Assembly: GCA_028554795.2 (NCBI GenBank)
Contig: CM068842.1
Span: 55,521,860-55,585,859, forward strand
Direction of reading: 5' to 3'
DNA length: 64,000 nt
Origin: Sinohyriopsis cumingii
Taxonomy: Eukaryota > Mollusca > Bivalvia > Unionida > Unionidae
Part shown: positions 2,400-28,810 of the stretch, in pieces
Layout: the number at the start of each line of letters is the position of its first letter
How positions within the stretch are numbered: position 1 is the stretch's first letter
The notes under the pieces: model-generated
Seen by the model: only the letters and a program-made list of their open reading frames with translations
Told to the model about the DNA's origin: nothing
Databases searched by the model: none
Program-made: the position numbers and the translations under genes

Positions 2400-3034
2400 T
2401 GTCATTACAATTTAGATCCATATTGTAACTTCGTACCTCACAAGCGAACGGTTAGTTACGCAAAGGAAGATTGCTGAACAATTTAGGGTTACTCCGAGGA
2501 AGCCACTCGTAATTTGGCAGTAAAACTGAAAAATAAATTCTATGGAAAGACAAAGCTTTGAAAAGGATACTTTCTTAGGCGTCAGAACTTCCGGTTCAGT
2601 TGAGTCCCTAGTCTCCAAGAGATGGAGACGGAAGTGAGACTAGCAGTACAGTCGGAGTCGACCAAAGTCTAGTCGGTGGAGAGAAGGTGTATAGAAGGTG
2701 GAGGAAGATAAAATGTAGTATGAAGGAGAACGTGAAGAAGGAGGAAAAGGGGTATAGAGAAGTCAAGGTGGAGAAGGAATTTGGAGAAAGTCGGGAGGAA
2801 GAGGAGAAGGAATTGGGAGGAATAGGAGAGAAGAATACACAAATTAGTCGAATACCAGAACAGATGGAAATCGATCTCACACTGCTAATCAAGTATTGCA
2901 ATGGCTATTAAAGGGTCGAGCGGAATGAGTGTAATTGGGAATTTAAATAATTTTCTTATTTAACTGTTATTAAATTGTTATTCAATGAACTTCAACCTTT
3001 TTGTATATATCATCTAACCGTCGGCATTGCTGAC
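2400..3034 (+). mobile_element. Probable 5' LTR and leader of the Ty3/gypsy relic
   Basis: This segment lies directly upstream of a primer-binding-site half (tgggggctc, 3035-3043). It could run from a TGTCA at 2400 to a GGCA at about 3026, the usual TG...CA ends. It is less AT-rich than the neighbourhood and contains a purine-rich stretch at 2685-2850. The start is a guess, because no 3' LTR survives in the window for comparison. Short open frames here are not protein-like and I do not treat them as genes. Confidence 0.35.
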
Positions 3035-3186
3035 TGGGGGCTCAGAGCTTTACACCTATCTTTCACTAATTTAACTTCCAACCAAAATTGAGCCTGGGTG
3101 GGACTTCTATAATAGTTTAAGTAAAATATTGGGAGCACCCCACCCAAATCATAATAAACCTGCGACAGTGCAACATCGTCCGGGAT
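3035..3186 (+). other. Retroelement primer-binding site split by a 134-bp insertion
   Basis: The 18-nt complement of a tRNA-Pro 3' end (the PBS type known from murine leukaemia virus) appears as two exact 9-nt halves: tgggggctc at 3035-3043 and gtccgggat at 3178-3186. The 134 bp between them (3044-3177) has no clear target duplication. It contains gggtggg and cccaccc as a short inverted pair. Confidence 0.55.
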
Positions 3187-3544
3187 CTGAATTAGACATA
3201 AATATTATTTTTACGACCTAAAGTAATAGTTATTAGGAAGTATTAGTGAACAGTTGTGAGATATTTTCCATCCTGTGTAGTTGAATTTTTATGATTTTTC
3301 AACTTGTGCATGTTATATTTTGATATTTGCATGCTTGGTAGATTTAAGTTTGCAGTAATTGTGAAGCAAATATCGGGCAAAGTATCTTACCTGAGCGAAG
3401 TTAGTTATTGTCAACAGGTAAGCATTGGGTTAGGAATTTGTAACCTCTGTCAATTGTTAGTAAGTCGAGACAAGGTATCACTTCCTATTAGTATCATCAT
3501 TAAAATGGCTACAGTAAGACAGATGATTTAAAGAGTATCGCACC

Positions 3545-4433
3545 ATGGGCACAGAAGATCTTGTGTACGAGGGAGCGTTCATAGAAGAGAGAATCAAAGA
3601 AAGGAGGGCCGAAAAAGCAGTTGAAAGAGAGACACAGAAGGAGCTGGCCAGAATGGCCGAAAAGGCAGCCAAAAGAGAAAAGGAGATGGTCACGATATCA
3701 GCGGACAGAGAAACACAGAAAGAGCAGGAGCTGGCCAAGATATCAGCGGACAGAGAGGCACAGAAAGAGCTGGCCAGGACATCAGCGACTGCAAAAGAAA
3801 GAGAGCTCTCTCACACTCTCGAAATGAAGAAATTAATGGTAGAAGCTAGGACCACCGATAGGGACGACTCCAGTACGAGTTTTGGATGGATCGTACGACA
3901 AATTATCAACCACAGCTTTATACAGATAAGTAATCCGCAATTCAATGACAAAGAAGAGTCCATCGACAATTTGAGAAACTCGCGTGTGTTCACAAAATAC
4001 ACGAACAACATTGGGCGATTAACGTCTCGGCCGTTTTGCAATATGCAGCTCGCGACATTTACCATAACTTAGCTGCAGAAGAAGCTGACGACTACAACGC
4101 GCTCAAGAAAGCCCTTCTTTGCCATTATCGGCTCACCGCCGAAACGTACCGTAAACTTTTTCAATTCCACACCTGTATTCGAGGGTTATTTGAGAAGTGG
4201 ATAAAGATGGCAGAAGTCGAACGATCCAAGGAGACGGTCTGCGCGAGGTTGTACCCAAGGAGCATGTCCTGAGTACTTACCGTCGCGAGTTGACAGTATT
4301 TATAGCAGAGAGAGAGAGGGCACAGGACTTTTGAAGAGATCGGCAGCATGGCGGAGAGATACGAGCAGACACTCGCGAAGAGTGGATTTCCAGGAGTACG
4401 GGCCGACCCTAACCCCCTTAGTCGCGCTGTGTG

Positions 4434-4467
<34 letters not shown>

Positions 4468-4665
4468 GGCTGTCCGTAATCGTCCTGGCGACGGGAAGGT
4501 CGGAGGGTGATCTACATGTAAGGATGCCACCGATAGACCCGGACAGGCCTCACCCACGAAAACGGGTCTTGCAGGACGGTGAGGGCCGCCGACGTGCTAC
4601 AACTGCAACCGCCCGGGGAATTTTGCAAGGGACTGTCCAAGGGCAGGCAAATCCAGGTGAATGCG
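3545..4665 (+). pseudogene. gag: Ty3/gypsy gag relic (coiled-coil N-terminus, capsid-like part, zinc knuckle)
   Basis: Structural protein that would package element RNA. The frame opens at ATG 3545 after a leader of about 360 bp. Residues 15-100 are Glu/Lys/Ala-rich with internal repeats (ISADRE... units), a clear coiled coil. The capsid-like part follows (IYHNLAAEEADDYNALKKAL, then HYRLTAETYRKLF) but in a different frame from about 4036, so there is at least one frameshift. A (GA)n tract at 4437-4465 has grown inside the gene, and stops precede it. A zinc knuckle at 4595-4636 reads CYNCNRPGNFARDC. In the CX2CX4HX4C pattern the His is replaced by Asn (aat at 4619-4621), so zinc binding is expected to be lost. 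The order coiled coil, capsid, knuckle and the downstream protease and integrase make the identification firm. The gene is clearly dead. Confidence 0.8.
4437..4465. repeat. (GA)n microsatellite inside the gag relic
   Basis: Perfect dinucleotide tract. It encodes a run of Arg-Glu in the overlapping frame and probably grew after the element died. Confidence 0.95.
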
Positions 4666-4684
4666 AGAAGGAAGCAAGCTATAA

Positions 4685-4985
4685 CCCTGAGTGTAGCGTT
4701 CCCGCCCTTGTCGACAAGAAATACGTGAAGCCTGCTGACTACACAAGGGAGGTAATTGAGGTCCAATACGCGAACAGCGCTCGTGACTCGTTACCAGTAG
4801 CTGTCATTGACCTCGATTCACAGTACGTGAAGGGTAAAATTGAAGATGCATGCTTGGATGGGCTATCACATGACGTCATACTGGAATGTCGTTATGTGTT
4901 TCCACAACCGAACCCAAAAACCTGCACACAAGAGTCGCTAAACGAAACCGACGATGATGTAAGTTATGTCAATACCGGTCAGTAA
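4685..4985 (+). pseudogene. pro: Ty3/gypsy aspartic protease relic (C-terminal part)
   Basis: The frame continues from the zinc-knuckle region and ends at a stop at 4983-4985. CSVPALVDKKYV, then LPVAVIDLDSQYVKGKIEDA and HDVILE, follow the order of the retropepsin beta strands in gypsy-type elements. The hydrophobic ILE stretch stands where the family has a conserved I-I/V-G-N. The three residues before CSVPALV, where the catalytic D-S/T-G is expected, read N-P-E. If the alignment is right, the active site is gone. The protease is followed directly by integrase, with no reverse transcriptase between. Confidence 0.6.
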
Positions 4986-4989
4986 CGTA

Positions 4990-6210
4990 CTTTTCGGCCG
5001 AGTTTCCGACCGAGTTGAGGAAACTGAAGCGGGAAGACGCAACTCTGACGCAGTTGCACAAATACGCTGCAGAAGGAACGGAGAAAGAAACTCCGATTGG
5101 CGCGGTGAAGTTCATGTACAAGAAGAGGATATTGTATCGCCACACCAGGAAAGGACACGGACACTTCAAGCAGATCGTCGTGCCAAAAGAGAAGGAAGGT
5201 GAAGTGAAATGAAGTGCATGAAAGTCCCATGGGAGAATACATGGGAATTGCCAAGACACATGATAGTCAAGGAATTCTACTGAACAAAGGTCCAAGGAGA
5301 TGTTAAGCTGTTCTGTCTCTCCTGTGACAAGTGTCAATGAATGGCACCGAAAACTGTTCATCGATCCGTCCCCTTGAGGAGTATACCCCTTATCGATGAA
5401 ACATTTCGACGCGTCGCGATGGATTTGAATGGATCGATTAAACCAACGTCGGCACACGGAAATCGGTATATTTGAATGGTCGTAGATTACGTTGCACGCT
5501 ATCCGAGGGCTGTCGCGATGCGCAATATTGATTCGGAAACCGTCGCAGGAGCGCTGCTTAGAATTTGGTCAAGAATTGGAGTGCCAGAAGAGATCCTGAC
5601 TGATCAAGGGACACAATTCATGAGTCATGTGATGAGAGAGATGAACCGACTGATGTCGATTGAGCACCTCACGACTACCCCGTATCACCCCCAATATAAC
5701 GGACAGGTCAAGCGTTTTAACGGGACTCTGAAAAACACGCTTAATAAGTTGTGTTAAGGCCGTCCTAACGATTGAGATCGGTATATTCCTGCCATGCTTT
5801 TTGCATATCAGGAAATACCACAAGTGAGTTTAAAGTTTTCTCCCTTTGAACTCCTGCATGGGAGGACCGTACGTGGGTTCATCGCCGTACTGAGACATAT
5901 GTGGAATGACGATCACGGTGTCGAAGAGGTACGTACTACGTATCAGTACATCGCGGATGTTTGTTGCCTCGCGCAGGAGAACCTGAAACGAACGAAGTCG
6001 CGTCAGGCGGAGTATTACAACAAACGCACGAAACAACGCCAGTATGAAGTAGGAGACAAGCTGTTGTTGCTGTTGCCGCAAGAACACAGGCTGCAAGTTT
6101 CTTGGAGGAACCGTACGTCGTAACCCGGAAGGTCGGGGTCAACCTTATCGGTGAGCTTTTGAACAAGTCAGTTCAAAATCTAAGGTAAAAACTTAAACGC
6201 CTATCAAGTA
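4990..6210 (+). pseudogene. int: Ty3/gypsy integrase relic, catalytic Glu replaced by Lys
   Basis: Would insert element cDNA into host DNA. The N-terminal linker (KREDATLTQLHKYA, then HFKQIVVPKE) is open at 5015-5212. The HHCC zinc domain follows in other frames. Its first His is at 5217-5219 (HESPMG), the second His site reads Tyr (5238-5240), and a Cys cluster (CLSCDKC) lies near 5322-5342. The catalytic core has Asp at 5422-5424 (VAMDLNG) and Asp at 5602-5604 (LTDQGTQF). The third acidic residue, 36 codons on at 5710-5712, is Lys in GQVKRFNG, so the DD35E triad is broken. In-frame stops lie at 5473-5475, 5755-5757 and 5773-5775 (the last where a Trp is expected). SPFELLHGRTVRG (about 5839-5877) and VGDKLLLLLP (about 6049-6078) mark the C-terminal part, then a frameshift near 6105. 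Similarity fades near 6210. Confidence 0.9.
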
Positions 6211-6976
6211 ACATATTTTGTTTATTATATATATTTGACTGATGACATTAGAAAGGTAATAAATAATATATTATCAGTATATAAAACAAGTATGCCGCAA
6301 TGATGACAACTTCAGAAAACGGAAGAATACTTTCTCTGCCTTCTTTAGTGCATTTGGGTATTCCTGTGTACGTAAACAGCGCTTATAGGTATCGTTTATC
6401 ATAAAGCCTTTTATTCAGGATATTTGTGGAACGTGCAAAGTATTACAAAAATACTTAAACTGTTTCTATTGCAGCCAAAGTTATACTTTTTTGTTTGTTT
6501 TTAAGATACTTTGTATCAGTGTTGTTGCTTTGAACATGAGAACATGGTTAAGATTTATTTTCTTTTCGGACAAAATAACTATGTATAAAAATAGTGTAAA
6601 TCATGCTGCTCAGTGACTAAAAGTGGTACAAGCATGAATCGTTTCGGACTCCAATAAATCGCCATGTGTATGTAAATATATTTGGAGAGCTTATAAAATT
6701 ATACGTATCGCGTCTTCGTCAGGTGATCAGTATTTCTTAATATAGCAGAGAGAGAGAGAGAGAGAGATGTGCGGATATGGATGGATTTTATTTATCGTTA
6801 TTTGGAAATTTCTAATAGAATTTTTACAAATCATATAAAGTCATGCTTGATAAGTTTGTCGAAATTTATCTGGAACTGTCCCTTCGCAAGAAAAATAACA
6901 TTAAGAAGAGAGGTACAATTTTAAATATATCAATTAAGCCTGTGTAAGCAGGCAGTGGCTCATACCTTTTGTCACC
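6211..6976. other. Unassigned spacer between retroelements, with a short (GA)n
   Basis: No protein-like frame. A (GA)n tract lies at 6746-6767. The 5' UTR of the following LINE may start somewhere here, but I see no boundary. No reverse transcriptase, RNase H or 3' LTR of the preceding Ty3/gypsy element is found. Confidence 0.5.
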
Positions 6977-7717
6977 ATGTCGAACATGCATTGCAGTACC
7001 TCAAGTACATCGTTCCCAAATATTTATCTTATAAAATCAACCCAATGATATCCTCACTCACAGTATATTTTGGAATGCTAGGCACACAGGATAACAGATA
7101 TTAACTTTTCACATACTTTATTACTGAGATAAATAAGACGTTGGATATTGCTTATCATGCACGTGTTGATTGGATCGAATATATTAGGTCTACCGTTGGG
7201 GGAAAGGTGACCGCAATGGAAGTACGGAGGTACAAACTGATTTAGATAAGACGTCATATAGATCATGCTTTGTCCATAGTAGTGGGAGATGTGTGGGTTC
7301 GAAAGCTAACGCTGATAAGCTTCAGTGCAAATATTGAGCTTTAAGGGAGGACTTTGATTGCTTGACCATTAGATCAATGACATATAATCTTCCATTATTT
7401 GGGATGCCTGAGATCCCTGATGCGCCGCAACACATGAAATCAGTTGTTTGTGATATCACATAGTCTAACTTGGACATGCTGATTGCCAGTGAGGTAAGAA
7501 TGGATAGAGATAACTGCCTTGAGAAGCATAGATGGGTGAAAACGGTCCGATTTTTGCCAAGTTCGACTTAAGTCCAGACAGGGAGAAACTGATTGAGAAA
7601 GGACAAGAAGAACTGAAAATTGTATCACATGGAGTTCTTTCTGCAGCTAGCGATGGATACGTCTCTTGCAAAAACAGAAATAAAGGATTGATATACAGAG
7701 TCCAGGTGGGAGAATGA
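6977..7717 (+). pseudogene. LINE ORF1 relic (RNA-binding, coiled coil plus RRM-like part)
   Basis: Would bind LINE RNA in the ribonucleoprotein particle. A possible start is ATG 6977 (MSNMHCSTSSTSF). A coiled-coil section (ITEINKTLDIAYHARVDWIE, then GGKVTAMEVRRYKL) spans about 7107-7230, followed by ALREDFDCLTIRSMTYNLPLFGMPE in pieces at 7356-7425. That is the usual ORF1 transition R-S/N-NL-x-F-G-x-P-E. After a frameshift in an HR codon near 7530 comes MGENGPIFAKFDLSPDREKL (7532 on), matching the conserved HRxG...RPIxxKF...R segment of LINE ORF1 proteins. The last frame ends at 7717. Stops near 7355 and 7459 and the frameshifts show it is inactive. ORF2 follows about 145 bp downstream on the same strand. 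Confidence 0.7.
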
Positions 7718-7861
7718 AATATGATGTCGGATGGAAAACAATCAGCATGCTAGATCTCAGTGGCCTGTATAATGCAAGATTTCCACCACATAGATAAAGA
7801 CAACATCCCCAGGATGCGAAACAGCAAGCTGGAAATTAGGACTAGCCAGAGGATGGGATAC

Positions 7862-9007
7862 AAATGTTAAATTGGAATGTTTGTTGACTAAGTGAAGATA
7901 ACGAATTTTGTAGCTTTATTTTTTTGGATCTACTTATAATATGTTTGATAGAATCATTAATTTCAGATTCTTCTAAAATAAATGTGGTTGGTCTTAAGAA
8001 TACTAATACAGAACACACAAAAAGACACAATGACAGGATGAAGCGTGGCTATATATTATATGCAAAAAGTTCCTAATAGGTTTAAAATTGTAAGTGAAAA
8101 TGGATATGCCAAGTGATAAAAACACAATCATAAGCTTCTTAGTTTATATACCTCCTGCGGTTTGTACTATCTTTAATCACATAAATTGTAACAACTTCAT
8201 AATGTAAATTTATTCAGTGAATATTTATATGAAGGTTCCAATGTTGGCATGTTAGCTTAATTCAATAATAGCGGGAGAAAACATACAACAGTGGACATTG
8301 CAGATGATGTTTTCTTATCCTTTGAAAAAGAAAATTATAAATGATTATATTAAAAGAGTATTTACCGACGAACATCAGATAGGTTTGGAAGATGTTTATT
8401 AAACGTCTGTAAAGCAGCAGACTTTAGAATTAATATTGATAAGGTGGCTTTAGGCAAAGATTTGGGCAAATTTTCACATGCACAAGCAAAAGACGCAAAA
8501 GACGCAATTGTTCAATAGTACCTGTTTTTAGGTTCATAATAGTATGAAATAGTTTGTTCATTTGCTCCGGCATTAATTCGTACATGTTTTATTTCAAATA
8601 ATAAGTATACAGTTTGATCTTTTTGGGGAAGTACGTACAAGTAGAACGAGAAATGTACTGAAACTTTTGTTGAAAAACTGCAAAACAAATGGAAAATTTA
8701 TTTGCAAATTGTCTTTCAAATATTTATTATGGTATTGAATGTATTGAACCCATCATAAATGAAACTGAGATTTGTACCGTTCCAGAAAACAACATTGATT
8801 ATTATTATTGACTGCATTGATTATTTTATTGAGTATATACACAATAGGAATAAATCCTTGTTTCACAACACAGGGCAGTTCAAAGAGCAAATTATCTTGA
8901 CCAGTTCAAAACTGATCAGTAGTCTATGAGGGACATAGATATGCAAATAATAGTTGATTTGAAACGACATTGATCCTGTATAAGGAAAGTCTTCATCCGA
9001 ATGTTGA
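7862..9007 (+). pseudogene. LINE ORF2 relic, apurinic-type endonuclease domain and linker
   Basis: The nuclease would nick target DNA to prime reverse transcription. Motifs appear in order along the plus strand in shifting frames: MLNWNVC at 7862 (the N-W-N-V-x-G start of LINE endonucleases), CLIESLISDSSKINVVGLKN at about 7944-8003 (E-T/S position, then the I-x-G-x loop), MKRGYIL at 8038-8058 (the GGI/V loop), IISFLVYIPPA at about 8130-8162 (the Y-I-P-P motif), and FGRCLLNVCKAADFRI then LGKDLGKFS at about 8383-8477 (the GR-L-C...LRI..G...G.FT block before V-D-Y). The section at 8540-9007 is poorly conserved, as the endonuclease-RT linker usually is. Many stops and frameshifts. The order and spacing of five motifs make this a firm call despite decay. 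Confidence 0.75.
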
Positions 9008-9547
9008 TGCAATATTCGGTGAATTGGACCATTGTCATGATATGACTGCAGGCAATATTCGGTGAATTGGACCATTGTCATGATATGACTGTGCAGGCAA
9101 TATTCAGTGAATTGGACCATTGTCATGATCGGTGAATTGGACCATTGTCATGATATGACTGTGCAGGCAATATTCGGTGAATTGGACCATTATCATTATA
9201 TGAATATGGAGGCAATATTCAGTGAATTGGACCATTATCATTATATGAATATGGAGGCAATATTCAATGAATTGGACCATTGTCATGATATGACTGTGCA
9301 GGCAATATTCATTTAATTGGACCATTATCATTATATGAATATTGAGGCAATATTCAATGAATTGGACCATTGTCATAATATGAATGCTAAGGCATTATTC
9401 AGTGAATTTGACTATCTTCATGATGTGAATGTTGAGGCTTTATTTGGTGAATTGGACCATTGTCGTGATATGAATGCTAAGGCAATATTCAGTGAATTTG
9501 ACCATTCTTATGATGTGAATGTTGAGGTTTTATTAGGTGAATTGGAC
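9008..9547 (+). repeat. 45-bp minisatellite, about 12-13 copies, in frame with LINE ORF2
   Basis: The unit is close to ggcaatattcagtgaattgg plus 25 more bases and encodes 15 residues (AIFGELDHCHDMN..). Most copies keep the frame. One early copy lacks 2 bp, one is truncated near 9128, and one has TAA for GAA at 9314-9316. In the 3' half, pairs of units form a 90-bp higher-order repeat (SEFD.. unit alternating with GELD.. unit). The last copy runs straight into the RT domain as GELDSLTINEIL, the place where LINEs have a short acidic segment ending in x-E-E/L-D-x-x-I-x-x-x-E-I. Confidence 0.85.
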
Positions 9548-10735
9548 TCACTAACGATAAATGAGATACTCGTTATTAAAACCTTTCAACTAAACAAGCA
9601 ACACGGCACTGGTTCACTTTTAAATGAAAGCTTACTTTATGAGAAAGTACAACTTAACTTCATATAACAAGATATCTAATGTCATTGCAATATCGGATTT
9701 TTTCCAGCAAGCTGAAGACAGGGTACTGTAAACAAATTTTTGCCAAGAGAATTTTTAACTCAGCCAAAAATTAGGTTCAATAATTGCCTAAATTCTTATC
9801 ATTATTCTTAAGCAGGATTATTTAGGCTGAACAAAAATCACACATGTCAGACGTACGATTTGGTTTCGAAAAGAGTAGCGACAATTCATGCTTTTTCTAT
9901 TTTAAATAGCTTTGTAAATAATCACATAAGTGAGTAGACTCGTTTTTGTGCCATATTTGTAGATTTCAAAAACCACTTGACAGATTATACAGAAACAAAT
10001 TCAAATTTAAGATTTTCAAACACGATATTGATGAAAATATATTTAATAATTGCAGTATATGTATAACTCGGTTATGTCTTCTATTGTACGTATTGATCAT
10101 TATTCTGATCTTTAATATCGGTATTTAAGTGTTAGGCAAGATTAATTAGTATCACCTATACTCTTTGTTGTTAGAAGCTGTTGTGACGTCATTATAACAA
10201 AGTGGAAACCCATGAATAACTTTTTAACATGCACCTCTCTTTGATTCTTCTGGTGCATGGTTTTCTTCTCAGAACCTCTCAGAGGATTGCAGCTTATATT
10301 ATAATTGCTTGAACAGTACTGTATGAACTAGAGACAAAAAGAAAATATAGATAAACGAAAGTTGTTGTTTTGAGACGGGGGCGGTCTATTTTGAATTCTG
10401 CAAAATGTTATGATGATGGAAAAGGAAGAGAAATTGCTGAAATATTTATTTATCCTGGTCTTCATTTCCCCAGTAATGGTACATTTTCAAAAGTACGACA
10501 TACTCTGGCATGTAAAGGAATAAAATCATTTTACATTTTGATTCATGCTTAAAAGGTCTAGGACTGGAACCAGGAGAATATATGGAGTTTTACACATATG
10601 CGAAGCTGTGGATTTCGAGGATGTTAATGTCGCTGAGTGCTTACCATTTAAGTTTACGAAATATGCCTTGAATATGTACAAATGTCAAGATAAATACTAC
10701 TGTACATGGGACACTTATTTTTTGCCTATGAAATT
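9539..10735 (+). pseudogene. LINE ORF2 relic, reverse transcriptase domain
   Basis: Would copy LINE RNA at the nicked target. Motifs in order: GELDSLTINEIL then FQLNKQHGTGSLLNE (9539-9642; the K-x-x-K/N-x-x-G-x-D-x-x-x-N-E fingers motif); GFFPAS followed by a stop where Trp is expected (about 9692-9712); AGLFRLNKN then IHAFSILNSFVNNHIS (about 9813-9930; the QAGFR..sT.D region); FVDF at 9956-9967 (motif A with its Asp), continuing in another frame as QKPLDRLYRNKF. The expected YADD catalytic box falls at about 10244-10262 and is destroyed. RGLQLIL, LEQYC and NIDK follow, then RRGRSILNSAK and FIYPGLHFPSNGTF (10370-10480; the thumb segment F-x-Y-L-G-x-x-F-x-x-x-G-x-F). Similarity ends with FKFTKYALNMYK near 10680. 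Confidence 0.8.
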
Positions 10736-10755
10736 ATGGAGACTCGTACAGATTG

Positions 10756-10873
<118 letters not shown>

Positions 10874-10875
10874 AT

Positions 10876-11262
10876 GAACTTTTAAATATGGGGACCGAAT
10901 GTTATCATACAGGTTAGAGAACTTTTAAATATGGGGACCGAATGTTGCCATACAGGTTAGAGAACGTTTAAATATGGGGACAGAATGTTACCATACAGGT
11001 TAGAGAATTTTTAAATATGGGGACCGAATGTTACCATACAGGTTAGAGAATTTTTAAATATGGGGACCGAATGTTGCCATTCAGGTTAGAGAATTTTTAA
11101 ATATGGGGACCGAATGTTGCCATTCAGGTTAGAGAATTTTTAAATATGGGGACCGAATGTTACCATACAGGTTAGAGAATTTTTAAATATGGGGACCGAA
11201 TGTTACCATACAGGTTAGAGAATTTTTAAATATGGGGACCGAATGTTACCATACAGGTTAGA
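10876..11262. repeat. 43-bp minisatellite, 9 copies
   Basis: Unit beginning gaatttttaaatatggggac and ending catacaggttaga. The array length of 387 bp equals 9 x 43 exactly. Copies differ by a few substitutions (tacc/tgcc, atac/attc). The period is not a multiple of three, so it is not coding. Confidence 0.95.
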
Positions 11263-11441
11263 GAATTTTAATTTTTCATTTGCGCTATATTGAGATACTG
11301 GTACCTATCGCCTTGCCTGACTGCACTAAGCCATATGAAAATTAGTTAAGAATGAATATGCAAATATCCTCATTCCACAAAAAAACGGATGTAACAAAGT
11401 CGCTGATAAAGACATGTTCGCATTACGACCAAATAATAAAT

Positions 11442-11584
11442 GTGTGTGTGTGTGTGGGGGGGGAGATATATAGATAGATAGATAGTTAGTTAGATAGAAA
11501 TCCATCCATCCATTCATCCGTACGTACGTACATACATACGTACATACGTACTTACATATATACATACATACATATATACATACA
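11442..11584. repeat. Compound (GT)n, G-run, GATA and ATCC/GTAC tetranucleotide repeats
   Basis: A succession of (TG)n, nine G, tagatagatag, then ccatccatccat, gtacgtacgta and catacatacata blocks. Confidence 0.9.
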
Positions 11585-11950
11585 ACTTTATTGTTTAATA
11601 AATTCATCAAAACCAATTTTGGAGATTAAGATTATCTGCGGCTTTCGATGAATGTATAACATAAAACAACCCCGACAAAGCAAAGAATCTAATCTCACTC
11701 ACATATAATTGAGACCGGTAGATCCGACAATATTGGAATAGTTACAAAACTTAGAATATCTTTATTGGCTTATAAAATTATGTTCGTGGACAAATATAAA
11801 ATTGGTTTGTAATTAGTACTAATTGCTGAGAAAATCCCTGATGTAAAAAAATAAAATGCGTGTTTTTAGTGTTTGGCATGAGAAAACGCGTTACGTCAAC
11901 TGACCCCATCAGCAACTATAAGTCGCAATAATAATTTTATGTGAAGAAAT

Positions 11951-11958
11951 AAAAATAA

Positions 11959-12020
<62 letters not shown>
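11951..12020. repeat. (TAA)n microsatellite
   Basis: About 70 bp of trinucleotide repeat at the left border of the LINE 3' fragment. The (ATT)n tail at 13041-13100 on the other side is its reverse complement, so the fragment sits between complementary tracts. Confidence 0.95.
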
Positions 12021-12021
<1 letters not shown>

Positions 12022-12035
12022 GGAAAATATTATTA

Positions 12036-12715
12036 TTGTTACACAATGTCATAATACCAATGATACTGAAAAAGCTCATTTGTCATTTTTTAAATATATC
12101 CTTGGTAGATCTAAGTCTGCTCCAAATGCGTAACGAATTAGGAAGAATTAGTATGCAGTGTATAACACATAAACGTAGTTTGAAATATTGGCAAAGAATT
12201 CTAAAACTGCCGGAAGACAGATATCCTAAACAATGTTACGATTTACGGTTAAGATGGGGAGGGGGATTAGCTGGGCTAACAAGGTTAAAAGCTTCAATTT
12301 ACACTTGGATTGGGAACTTTTTGATGTACTCAGGGCGTAATGATGAAAATACATTTCTTAGAAAGTTCAGCCAGAGATGTAAAGATATTTGTAAAGCTGC
12401 AGAATGAGATTAAGTAGATGAAAGACTGCGCTTCTATAGGTCATTGGAAGTAGAATTTAGTTGTCAAAGATACCAAAATTTTTGGTAGATAACGATCTTT
12501 GTTATATGACCACTATGCTCGTAGTGTGGAACTTACCAATCAGAGATAATACGGAAAGATATGAAAGTATTTGCTATGAGGAAAGACTGTGTCAAATTCG
12601 TAACGTTAACATCCAAAATGAATTCCATTTTATTACTGCTTGTCCGCTATATATGGAGAAATATGAAGAAAATATTTACACACCTTTGTATATAAAAATC
12701 CAACTTTAGAAAAAT
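12036..12715 (+). pseudogene. LINE ORF2 C-terminal domain relic
   Basis: Open at 12036-12407: RNELGRI (about 12125-12145) followed by KRSLKYWQRILKLPEDRYPK (12171-12230). This is the ELGR...YW..IL...yPK segment that follows the RT in many invertebrate LINEs; next is LRLRWGGGLAGLTRLKASIY. After a break, the frame at 12461-12709 gives LPIRDNTERYESICYEERLC, then QNEFHFITACPLY (12616-12654), the zinc-ribbon-like end of such ORF2 proteins (C..C..(x)EFHFL..CPLY). The first Cys pair is partly lost (LCQIRN). A frame break and stops show it is dead. It lies in the same orientation and order as the relics from 6.98 kb on. Confidence 0.8.
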
Positions 12716-13043
12716 TTAGGTCGTTTATAAAAAGTGATGCTAGAAAAATTCTGATGACAAATTTAGAAATGTTTACTATAAAGGTTCTAAAGATAAGAAA
12801 CCTTTTTATCAACGACTCCTGCCACATAAGACGATATTACAAGACTTATTCCATGCAAATTTTAGGGTTACCCTTAAATTTGTTTGTGTGATTACTGTGT
12901 ATTATATAAGTGTATCTCACACATTCGAAAAATGCAATAATGATTATTTTCATGTATATTGCTTCCACTATAACATCTTTGTGTACCGCATTATGTATGG
13001 ATATGTATCATGGGCCAGTGGCCTGTATTACAAATAAACATTA

Positions 13044-13099
<56 letters not shown>

Positions 13100-13100
13100 G
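12716..13100 (+). mobile_element. LINE 3' UTR and (ATT)n tail
   Basis: Non-coding sequence ending atgggccagtggcctgtatt and acaaataaaca at 13010-13040, then (TTA)n to 13100. A short 3' UTR, an aataaa-like signal and a simple-repeat tail are typical LINE 3' ends, which marks the right border of the element. Confidence 0.75.
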
Positions 13101-15637
<2,537 letters not shown>

Positions 15638-27438: not shown

Positions 27439-28810
27439 AGATGACTGTGACTGTGCCTTAATAACACATGCAACTCATACCAAGTGACTATGACTGTGCC
27501 TTAATAACACATGCAACTCATACCAAGTGACTGTGACTGTGCCTTAATAACACATGCAACTCATACCAAGTGACTGTGACTGTGCCTTAATAACACATGC
27601 AACTCATACCAAGTGACTATGACTGTGCCTTAATAACACATGCAACTCATACCAAGTGACTATGACTGTACCTTAATAACACATGCAACTCATACCAAGT
27701 GACCATGACTGTGCCTTAATAACACATGCAACTCATACCAAGTGACCATGACTGTGCCTTAATAACACATGCAACTCATACCAAGTGACTATGACTGTGC
27801 CTTAATAACACATGCAACTCATACCAAGTGACTATGACTGTGCCTTAATAACACATGCAACTCATACCAAGTGACTATGACTGTGCCTTAATAACAAATG
27901 CAACTCATACCAAGTGACTATGACTGTGCCTTAATAACAAATGTAACTGATACCAAGTGACTATGACTGTGCCTTAATAACAAATGTAACTCATACCAAG
28001 TGACTATGACTGTGCCTTAATAACACATGTAACTCATACCAAGTGACTATGACTGTGCCTTAATAACACATGCAACTCATACCAAGTGACTATGACTGTG
28101 CCTTAATAACACATGCAACTCATACCAAGTGACTATGACTGTGCCTTAATAACAAATGCAACTCATACCAAGTGACTATGACTGTGCCTTAATAACACAT
28201 GCAACTCATACCAAGTGACTATGACTGTGCCTTAATAACACATGCAACTCATACCAAGTGACTATGACTGTGCCTTAATAACATATGTAAGTCATACCAA
28301 GTGACTATGACTGTGCCTTAATAACAAATGCAACTCATACCATGTGACTATGACTGTACCCTAATAACACGTTCAACTCATACCAAGTGACTATGACTGT
28401 GCCTTAATAACAAATACAACTCATACCAAGTGACTATGACTGTGCATTAATTACACATGCAAAGCATACCAGGTGACTATGACTGTACCCTAATAACACA
28501 TTCAACTCATGCCAAGTGATTATGACTGTGCCTTAATAACACATTCAACTCATACCAAGTGACTATGACTGTGCCTTAATAACAAATGCAACTCATACCA
28601 AGTGACTATGACTGTGCCTTAATAACACATCCAACTCATGCCAAGTGACTATGACTGCCTTAAGAACACATTGAACGCATACCAAGTGACTATGACTGTG
28701 CCTTAATAACACATGCAAAGCATACCACGTGACTATGAATTGCCTTAATAACACATTCAACTCATGCCAGGTGACTATGACTGTGCCTTAATAAGACATG
28801 CAAATCATAA
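27439..28810. repeat. 43-bp minisatellite, about 32 copies
   Basis: Unit gtgactatgactgtgcctta plus ataacacatgcaactcatac plus caa. Copies before about 28250 are nearly identical. Toward the 3' end they carry more substitutions and short deletions (for example 28650-28740). The period is not a multiple of three. This is the longest array in the window. Confidence 0.97.

Follow-up and report, generated by a model that had tools for sequence, protein, structure and literature searches.

A 45-bp minisatellite grown from LINE codons that precede the reverse transcriptase domain, with unexpanded and differently expanded relatives in the same genome

Transposons gave rise to at least 7,276 of the tandem repeats in the human genome, or 23% of all its minisatellites and satellites (Ahmed and Liang, 2012; PMC3389668). 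According to the passages of that paper used here, a tandem array arises from part of a transposon when it inserts or later, short direct repeats may start it, certain regions of an element can act as hotspots, and transposition may account for the spread of LTR12 repeats. LINE ORF2 sequence has been described in satellites, namely PROsat of Phodopus, Pvc 20 of Phoca and chicken HinfI/CR1 (the relevant section of PMC9659126). The locus reported here is like the human cases, as those passages of PMC3389668 present them, in that part of a transposon copy has turned into a tandem array; it is unlike them in its source (LINE ORF2 codons before the reverse transcriptase, RT), in the animal and in having unexpanded and differently expanded relatives. 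With PROsat, Pvc 20 and HinfI/CR1, as that section of PMC9659126 has them, it has in common that the tandem unit contains LINE ORF2 sequence; whereas those three rank as named satellite DNAs, it is one local minisatellite of ∼540 bp. Among the literature passages searched, no report of an expansion at the LINE pre-RT segment was recognised, which is weak evidence of absence.

The window (the whole stretch of DNA that was analysed, 64 kb) lies on contig C19 of a genome of 2.9 Gb in 1138 contigs. A 45-bp minisatellite of ∼11–12 units with the consensus amino-acid unit HCHDMNVEAIFSELD was located at 9009–9547 on the + strand by TRF and unit decomposition. That a minisatellite of this period lies here in a LINE had been claimed in the first-pass annotation, and the array was found to be real and its stated coordinates correct by TRF and anchors, and to sit inside a decayed LINE by alignment to other LINE copies. 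The anchor steps along the array are 43, 45, 70 (45 + 25), 45, 45, 45, 45, 45, 90 (2 × 45) and 45, and one register holds ten 45-bp units, from HCHDMTVQAIFSELD to HSYDVNVEVLLGELD. The last of these, HSYDVNVEVLLGELD (9503–9547, + strand), aligns with the unit of the short LINE copies L086 and L088 described below (MAFFT, blastn). In the 3′ part (9132–9547, + strand; TRF and ORF reading), TRF gave a period of 45 with 9.2 copies and 82% matches; this part is in a single frame continuous with the RT start and has one TAA at 9314–9316. In the frame of the open reading frame at 9317–9667 the array leads into GELDSLTINEIL, and its last 416 bp (9132–9547) continue into GELDSLTINEILVIKTFQLNKQHGTGSLLNESLL. 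The 5′ part (9009–9131, + strand; TRF and anchors) is irregular, with period-43 and period-25 rows at 9009–9154 in TRF; a 43-bp unit (9009–9051) together with a 25-bp partial unit shifts the 5′ end into other frames. The earlier statement that the repeat runs into the RT domain without frame change thus holds for 9132–9547 and fails at the TAA and at the 5′ end, where the 43-bp and 25-bp units break the frame.

By alignment to other LINE copies, the DNA around the array is a LINE copy that is old and no longer active; its frame is shifted in places and later repeats interrupt it. The start of the decayed RT domain (SLTINEIL..KQHGTGSLLNESLL; 9548–9667, + strand) was recognised by a profile match and by blastn to L034, L086, L088 and L089. 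The protein profile match, at 9443–9631, is weak alone (11.0 bits versus 10.6 for the best of 30 shuffles); L034 scored 15.3. Further decayed RT sequence with frame breaks occupies 9789–10744 (+ strand; blastn to L041 over 9789–9994 and to L034 up to 10744), the first of these pieces being 61% identical to the LINE RT region in L041, a locus in which LINE RT is present and no array was seen. The stretch 7785–10744 matches L034 on contig C12 in five colinear pieces (60–65%), and homology of the RT domain to LINE copies of the same genome was obtained by blastn, tblastn and an RT tree. Upstream of the array, the LINE linker just 5′ of it (8893–8989, + strand) is common to the short copy L089 (blastn 67%, E = 1.6e-7), and a motif at 8354–8476 (+ strand), which we take to be an endonuclease-like LINE remnant, gave a weak tblastn match to L076 (E = 1.6e-4). 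The decayed C-terminal part lies at 12039–12658 (+ strand; tblastn to L062 over 12050–12658, E = 9e-33), split from the RT part by (TA)n at 10756–10871 followed by a 43-bp minisatellite at 10876–11269 (9.2 copies). Pfam matches in the window were below the curated cut-offs and were judged spurious. A DNA search of the 2.9-Gb genome with 9538–10140 of the window found only itself, and a DNA profile of the wider LINE family found nothing significant. Elsewhere in the window, an open stretch at 5776–6123, to which Pfam gave no match, looks like a piece of an LTR-retrotransposon integrase.

Close relatives of the host LINE were found through a genome-wide pattern scan for the core of the unit, which gave 15 matches. 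The window array accounts for ten of them and L035 for two, and three are at new places; a reversed control pattern in the same scan gave two. L086 and L088, at two of the new places, are LINE copies that match the window and L034 across the RT start (58–63%). The third, L087, was not recognised as a LINE copy despite its match to the pattern. A search with L088 gave four matches, L089 and L090 among them. When the 140-bp stretch at the site was compared with a unit trimer, none of 2000 shuffles was as good for any of L086, L088, L089 and L090, and in all four just one to two unit lengths precede the RT start. L086 holds one unit, a further unit upstream being unsupported (455 of 1000 shuffles as good); L088 holds one unit and part of another (2 of 1000 shuffles as good), and L089 and L090 are similar. 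Two clear ancestral units in L088–L090 were considered and rejected, since 1886, 1190 and 1782 of 2000 shuffles matched as well as the candidate pairs did. By eye, two ELD-like spots ∼15–18 residues apart can be seen in the short copies. All four copies have LINE sequence 3′ of the unit, and L089 and L090 have it 5′ as well; the upstream linker of these two can be aligned to the window and to L034, so that simple truncation at the array does not account for them. Upstream of the unit in L086 no LINE sequence was found, and an array could have been cut off there. The four copies are the unexpanded state of the array site.

The unit in L089 is bounded by the direct repeat TGAATGT (7 bp exact, 53 bp apart), and that in L088 by one of 6 bp; a bounding repeat was looked for in L090 and L086 and was not found. 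A unit bounded by a short direct repeat, of 7 bp in L089, is like the minisatellite start model of Haber and Louis in the form in which passages of PMC6947457 and PMC3389668 relate it; unlike in the model so related, the repeat is exact in one of the four short copies and its spacing is 53 bp, not 45.

For the wider family, searches were made with the RT piece of L037 (inside L041; 150 matches among the best 150 of 3998 candidates) and with the L044 segment (149 matches among the best 150 of 2688 candidates), and 44 loci were examined, 30 from the RT-piece search, including the query's own locus L042, and 14 from the L044-segment search. The pre-RT segment could be read by eye in 14 of the 44 (L043–L049, L072, L073, L075, L077, L081, L083 and L085) and is present once in each. 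It reads YKNDFLDQxTIFEELDKKIKGNEITKAIQNLKTTSKQ in L044, ENDLLDQRTIYKEPDTQITEDEI in L075 and VLLEELDKQITEDEITKA in L083; L085, a copy of a LINE with an 1184-aa open frame and the only such copy seen, has the single segment HIEALQTSISLNEVREI. None of the 44 loci contains a unit according to a weight matrix built from those of the window (best score 9.5, versus a maximum of 12.6 in five shuffled 64-kb sequences); the matrix is blind to the wider family's more distant segment, for which the single-segment claim comes from reading by eye and TRF. The earlier proposal that the array unit stems from a segment just before the RT domain that is single in LINEs is borne out by the four relatives, which hold one to two unit lengths, and by these 14 loci. 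Many LINE matches score equally and have open frames of up to 1184 aa, for example at G000 C4:2821135 and C16:42096122, and presumably represent a recently active family.

Three of the 30 RT-piece loci (L056, L060 and L061), in which the segment is unreadable, carry arrays of different sequence close to where it would be expected. These arrays were rejected as relatives of the unit, having no resemblance to it nor clearly to the segment; in the best array-versus-segment case, L061 against L075, 53 of 1000 shuffles were as good. Short arrays near or in the RT start of L055, L056, L060 and L061 have periods of 24, 36, 39 and 72 bp, all multiples of 3. Upstream of the RT start of another LINE copy, at L078 70–466 (C37), lies a 47-bp array of 8.5 copies.

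L034 (G000:C12:18793000–18802000) carries at the same spot four and a half 39-bp units (VLSYLGYFYDVKA), then one 45-bp step into the RT start. It matches the window LINE at 62% over 750 bp and 60% over 851 bp, and the RT tree joins the two (FastTree support 0.961, 20 sequences). No homology beyond the LINE, as far as this is traceable, was found between window 3001–14000 and the 9 kb around L034, and a DNA search with L034 3860–4560 found only itself. Other LINE copies, to which the first-pass annotation had pointed as a check, hold one to two unit lengths in four cases and a different number and length of units in L034. Arrays of this kind in LINE context were found in the window and L034 only, with different units.

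L035 (G000:C118:789000–798500) holds at 4719–5461 a diverged array of the window's 45-bp unit type, with eight weight-matrix matches; the divergence of six of its units from the window units is 33%. An insert that resembles a SINE and has matches in seven of the 44 loci interrupts the array. Searches around the array gave no LINE sequence, and a likeness of its 5′ flank to LINE linker, seen by eye, was unsupported on comparison. Of all the results, this array alone fits in less than neatly. An independent 45-bp satellite elsewhere had been named beforehand as what would speak against such an origin; the unit occurs in that way at most once, in L035, without detectable LINE flanks.

The mean Jukes–Cantor (JC) distance among units is 0.207 in the window (10 units), 0.088 in L034 (4 units) and 0.538 in L035 (6 units), and for the window against L034, 303 columns of the RT region give JC 0.621. 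Since the unit distances are far below the distance between the copies, the window and L034 arrays look, on these alignments, much younger than the split of their LINE copies, unless they were homogenised later; homogenisation can make an old array look young, and the age argument is not airtight. The L035 distance of 0.54 implies an array older than that of the window. In the passage of PMC13282606 cited here, JC 0.09 is quoted as about 25 My. Half the mean unit distance of the window would give, as a rough guide, ∼29 My only if the genome is that of an octopus and the calibration in that passage applies. Relative to the unit consensus, 50 substitutions in the ten units comprise 8 synonymous, 41 non-synonymous and 1 stop, versus a neutral expectation of 9.5, 39.5 and 1.1 (fractions 0.189, 0.789 and 0.022). 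There is no sign that the repeat has been under protein constraint.

We put the probability at roughly 0.75 that the pre-RT codons expanded into an array by ordinary slippage or unequal exchange after the copy had inserted and stopped coding. A 45-bp stretch coding for the residues just before the RT domain would have been duplicated in an old, inactive LINE copy, and the duplicate would have grown by slippage or unequal exchange to about a dozen tandem copies. The expansion would have come after insertion and loss of coding, and the array would owe its frame to the parent codons, with the 45-bp step, rather than selection, preserving it. A short direct repeat such as TGAATGT, 53 bp apart in L089, may have been the seed. 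We infer both the slippage mechanism and the independence of the expansions in different copies. Evidence against a birth after insertion is that both unit lengths at the site, 45 and 39, are multiples of 3, for which the chance is 1 in 9. The unit comes from the host transposon, unexpanded relatives exist and expansion most likely followed insertion, barring homogenisation; the array is a transposon-derived minisatellite, a clear example of a known process. One genome holds unexpanded and two differently expanded versions of one LINE site, so that origin, register and relative age can be measured, and the case is a warning against concluding that a tandem repeat was translated because it keeps the frame of a transposon gene.

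The array could instead have expanded inside a living, translated LINE and been spread by retrotransposition, with the window, L034 and L035 as descendants. The two expanded LINE copies do group in the RT tree with expansions at one spot, their unit lengths are both divisible by 3, L035 has the same unit type, and the lack of shared homology outside the LINE makes the window and L034 apparently separate insertions. Set against this, the unit lengths of the two differ, divergence within the arrays is far below that between the copies, the codon pattern is neutral with a stop and frame-breaking units, and four copies of the subfamily (L086, L088, L089 and L090) are unexpanded; this reading is unlikely. 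The last 45-bp step in L034 is no proof of a shared array, because the short copies too have two ELD-like spots. Doubtful as well is an ancient active subfamily with a variable in-frame pre-RT repeat, from whose elements, retrotransposing with a growing protein repeat, the three arrays would descend. Such a subfamily, if it existed, would show that a LINE can keep its mobility during growth of its pre-RT linker. The suggestion in the first-pass annotation that amplification took place while the LINE was translated finds no backing in the neutral substitutions, the two frame-breaking units and the unit JC of 0.207 against a copy JC of 0.621. Its proposal of LINE codons expanded during translation therefore survives as to origin and falls as to timing, as far as this is testable.

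An independent 45-bp satellite or minisatellite might have been inserted into the LINE, its likeness to LINE codons being accidental. L035 has an array of the unit type without a detectable LINE flank, and 23 matched loci outside the window, L034 and L035 show that the genome has 45-bp arrays of different sequence; yet in short LINE copies the unit occupies precisely this position, next to LINE flanks, and L086 and L088 (not L087) among the three new places of the pattern scan are LINE copies. An inserted satellite is very improbable and is largely refuted by the short alleles. It is likewise highly improbable that segmental duplication of a single insertion produced the window and L034 copies, their shared array spot reflecting one event: arrays of this unit turned up in just two LINE copies, as such a duplication would have it, but the matches between window 3001–14000 and the 9 kb of L034 are confined to the traceable LINE, the ends of which are not exactly placed, at ∼60–65%.

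Growth of the array after insertion would fit a genome in which minisatellites are frequent. The window has 12 arrays with periods of 20–100 bp and three or more copies, and 94.4 kb of 30 LINE loci (some near-identical) have 23 such arrays, with 9 of the 23 periods divisible by 3. L034 4558–4720 is a 31-bp tandem array of RT codons in a decayed LINE and is out of frame. In L089, a 40-bp unit adjoining the LINE is present 6.8 times at 255–529 and once in its 92% identical inverted partner L090 (C7), and is a minisatellite birth after the L089/L090 duplication. As minisatellites are frequent and some are born without a working frame, a frame-keeping period of 45 bp is unremarkable.

Out of 103 protein matches to the unit, 30 loci were examined and rejected as a source of further relatives: four lie in the window array, two in that of L035 and one in L034, and the other 23 all fall in 45-bp arrays with a different sequence (in several cases one and the same array) and are taken to match through their 15-residue period. 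One protein look-alike, L008, has no unit match at the DNA level (444 and 530 of 1000 shuffles as good), and L038 and L039 were not recognised as LINE copies. Among the window arrays with periods of 20–100 bp, a 43-bp array at 27442–28809 has the most copies (31.9).
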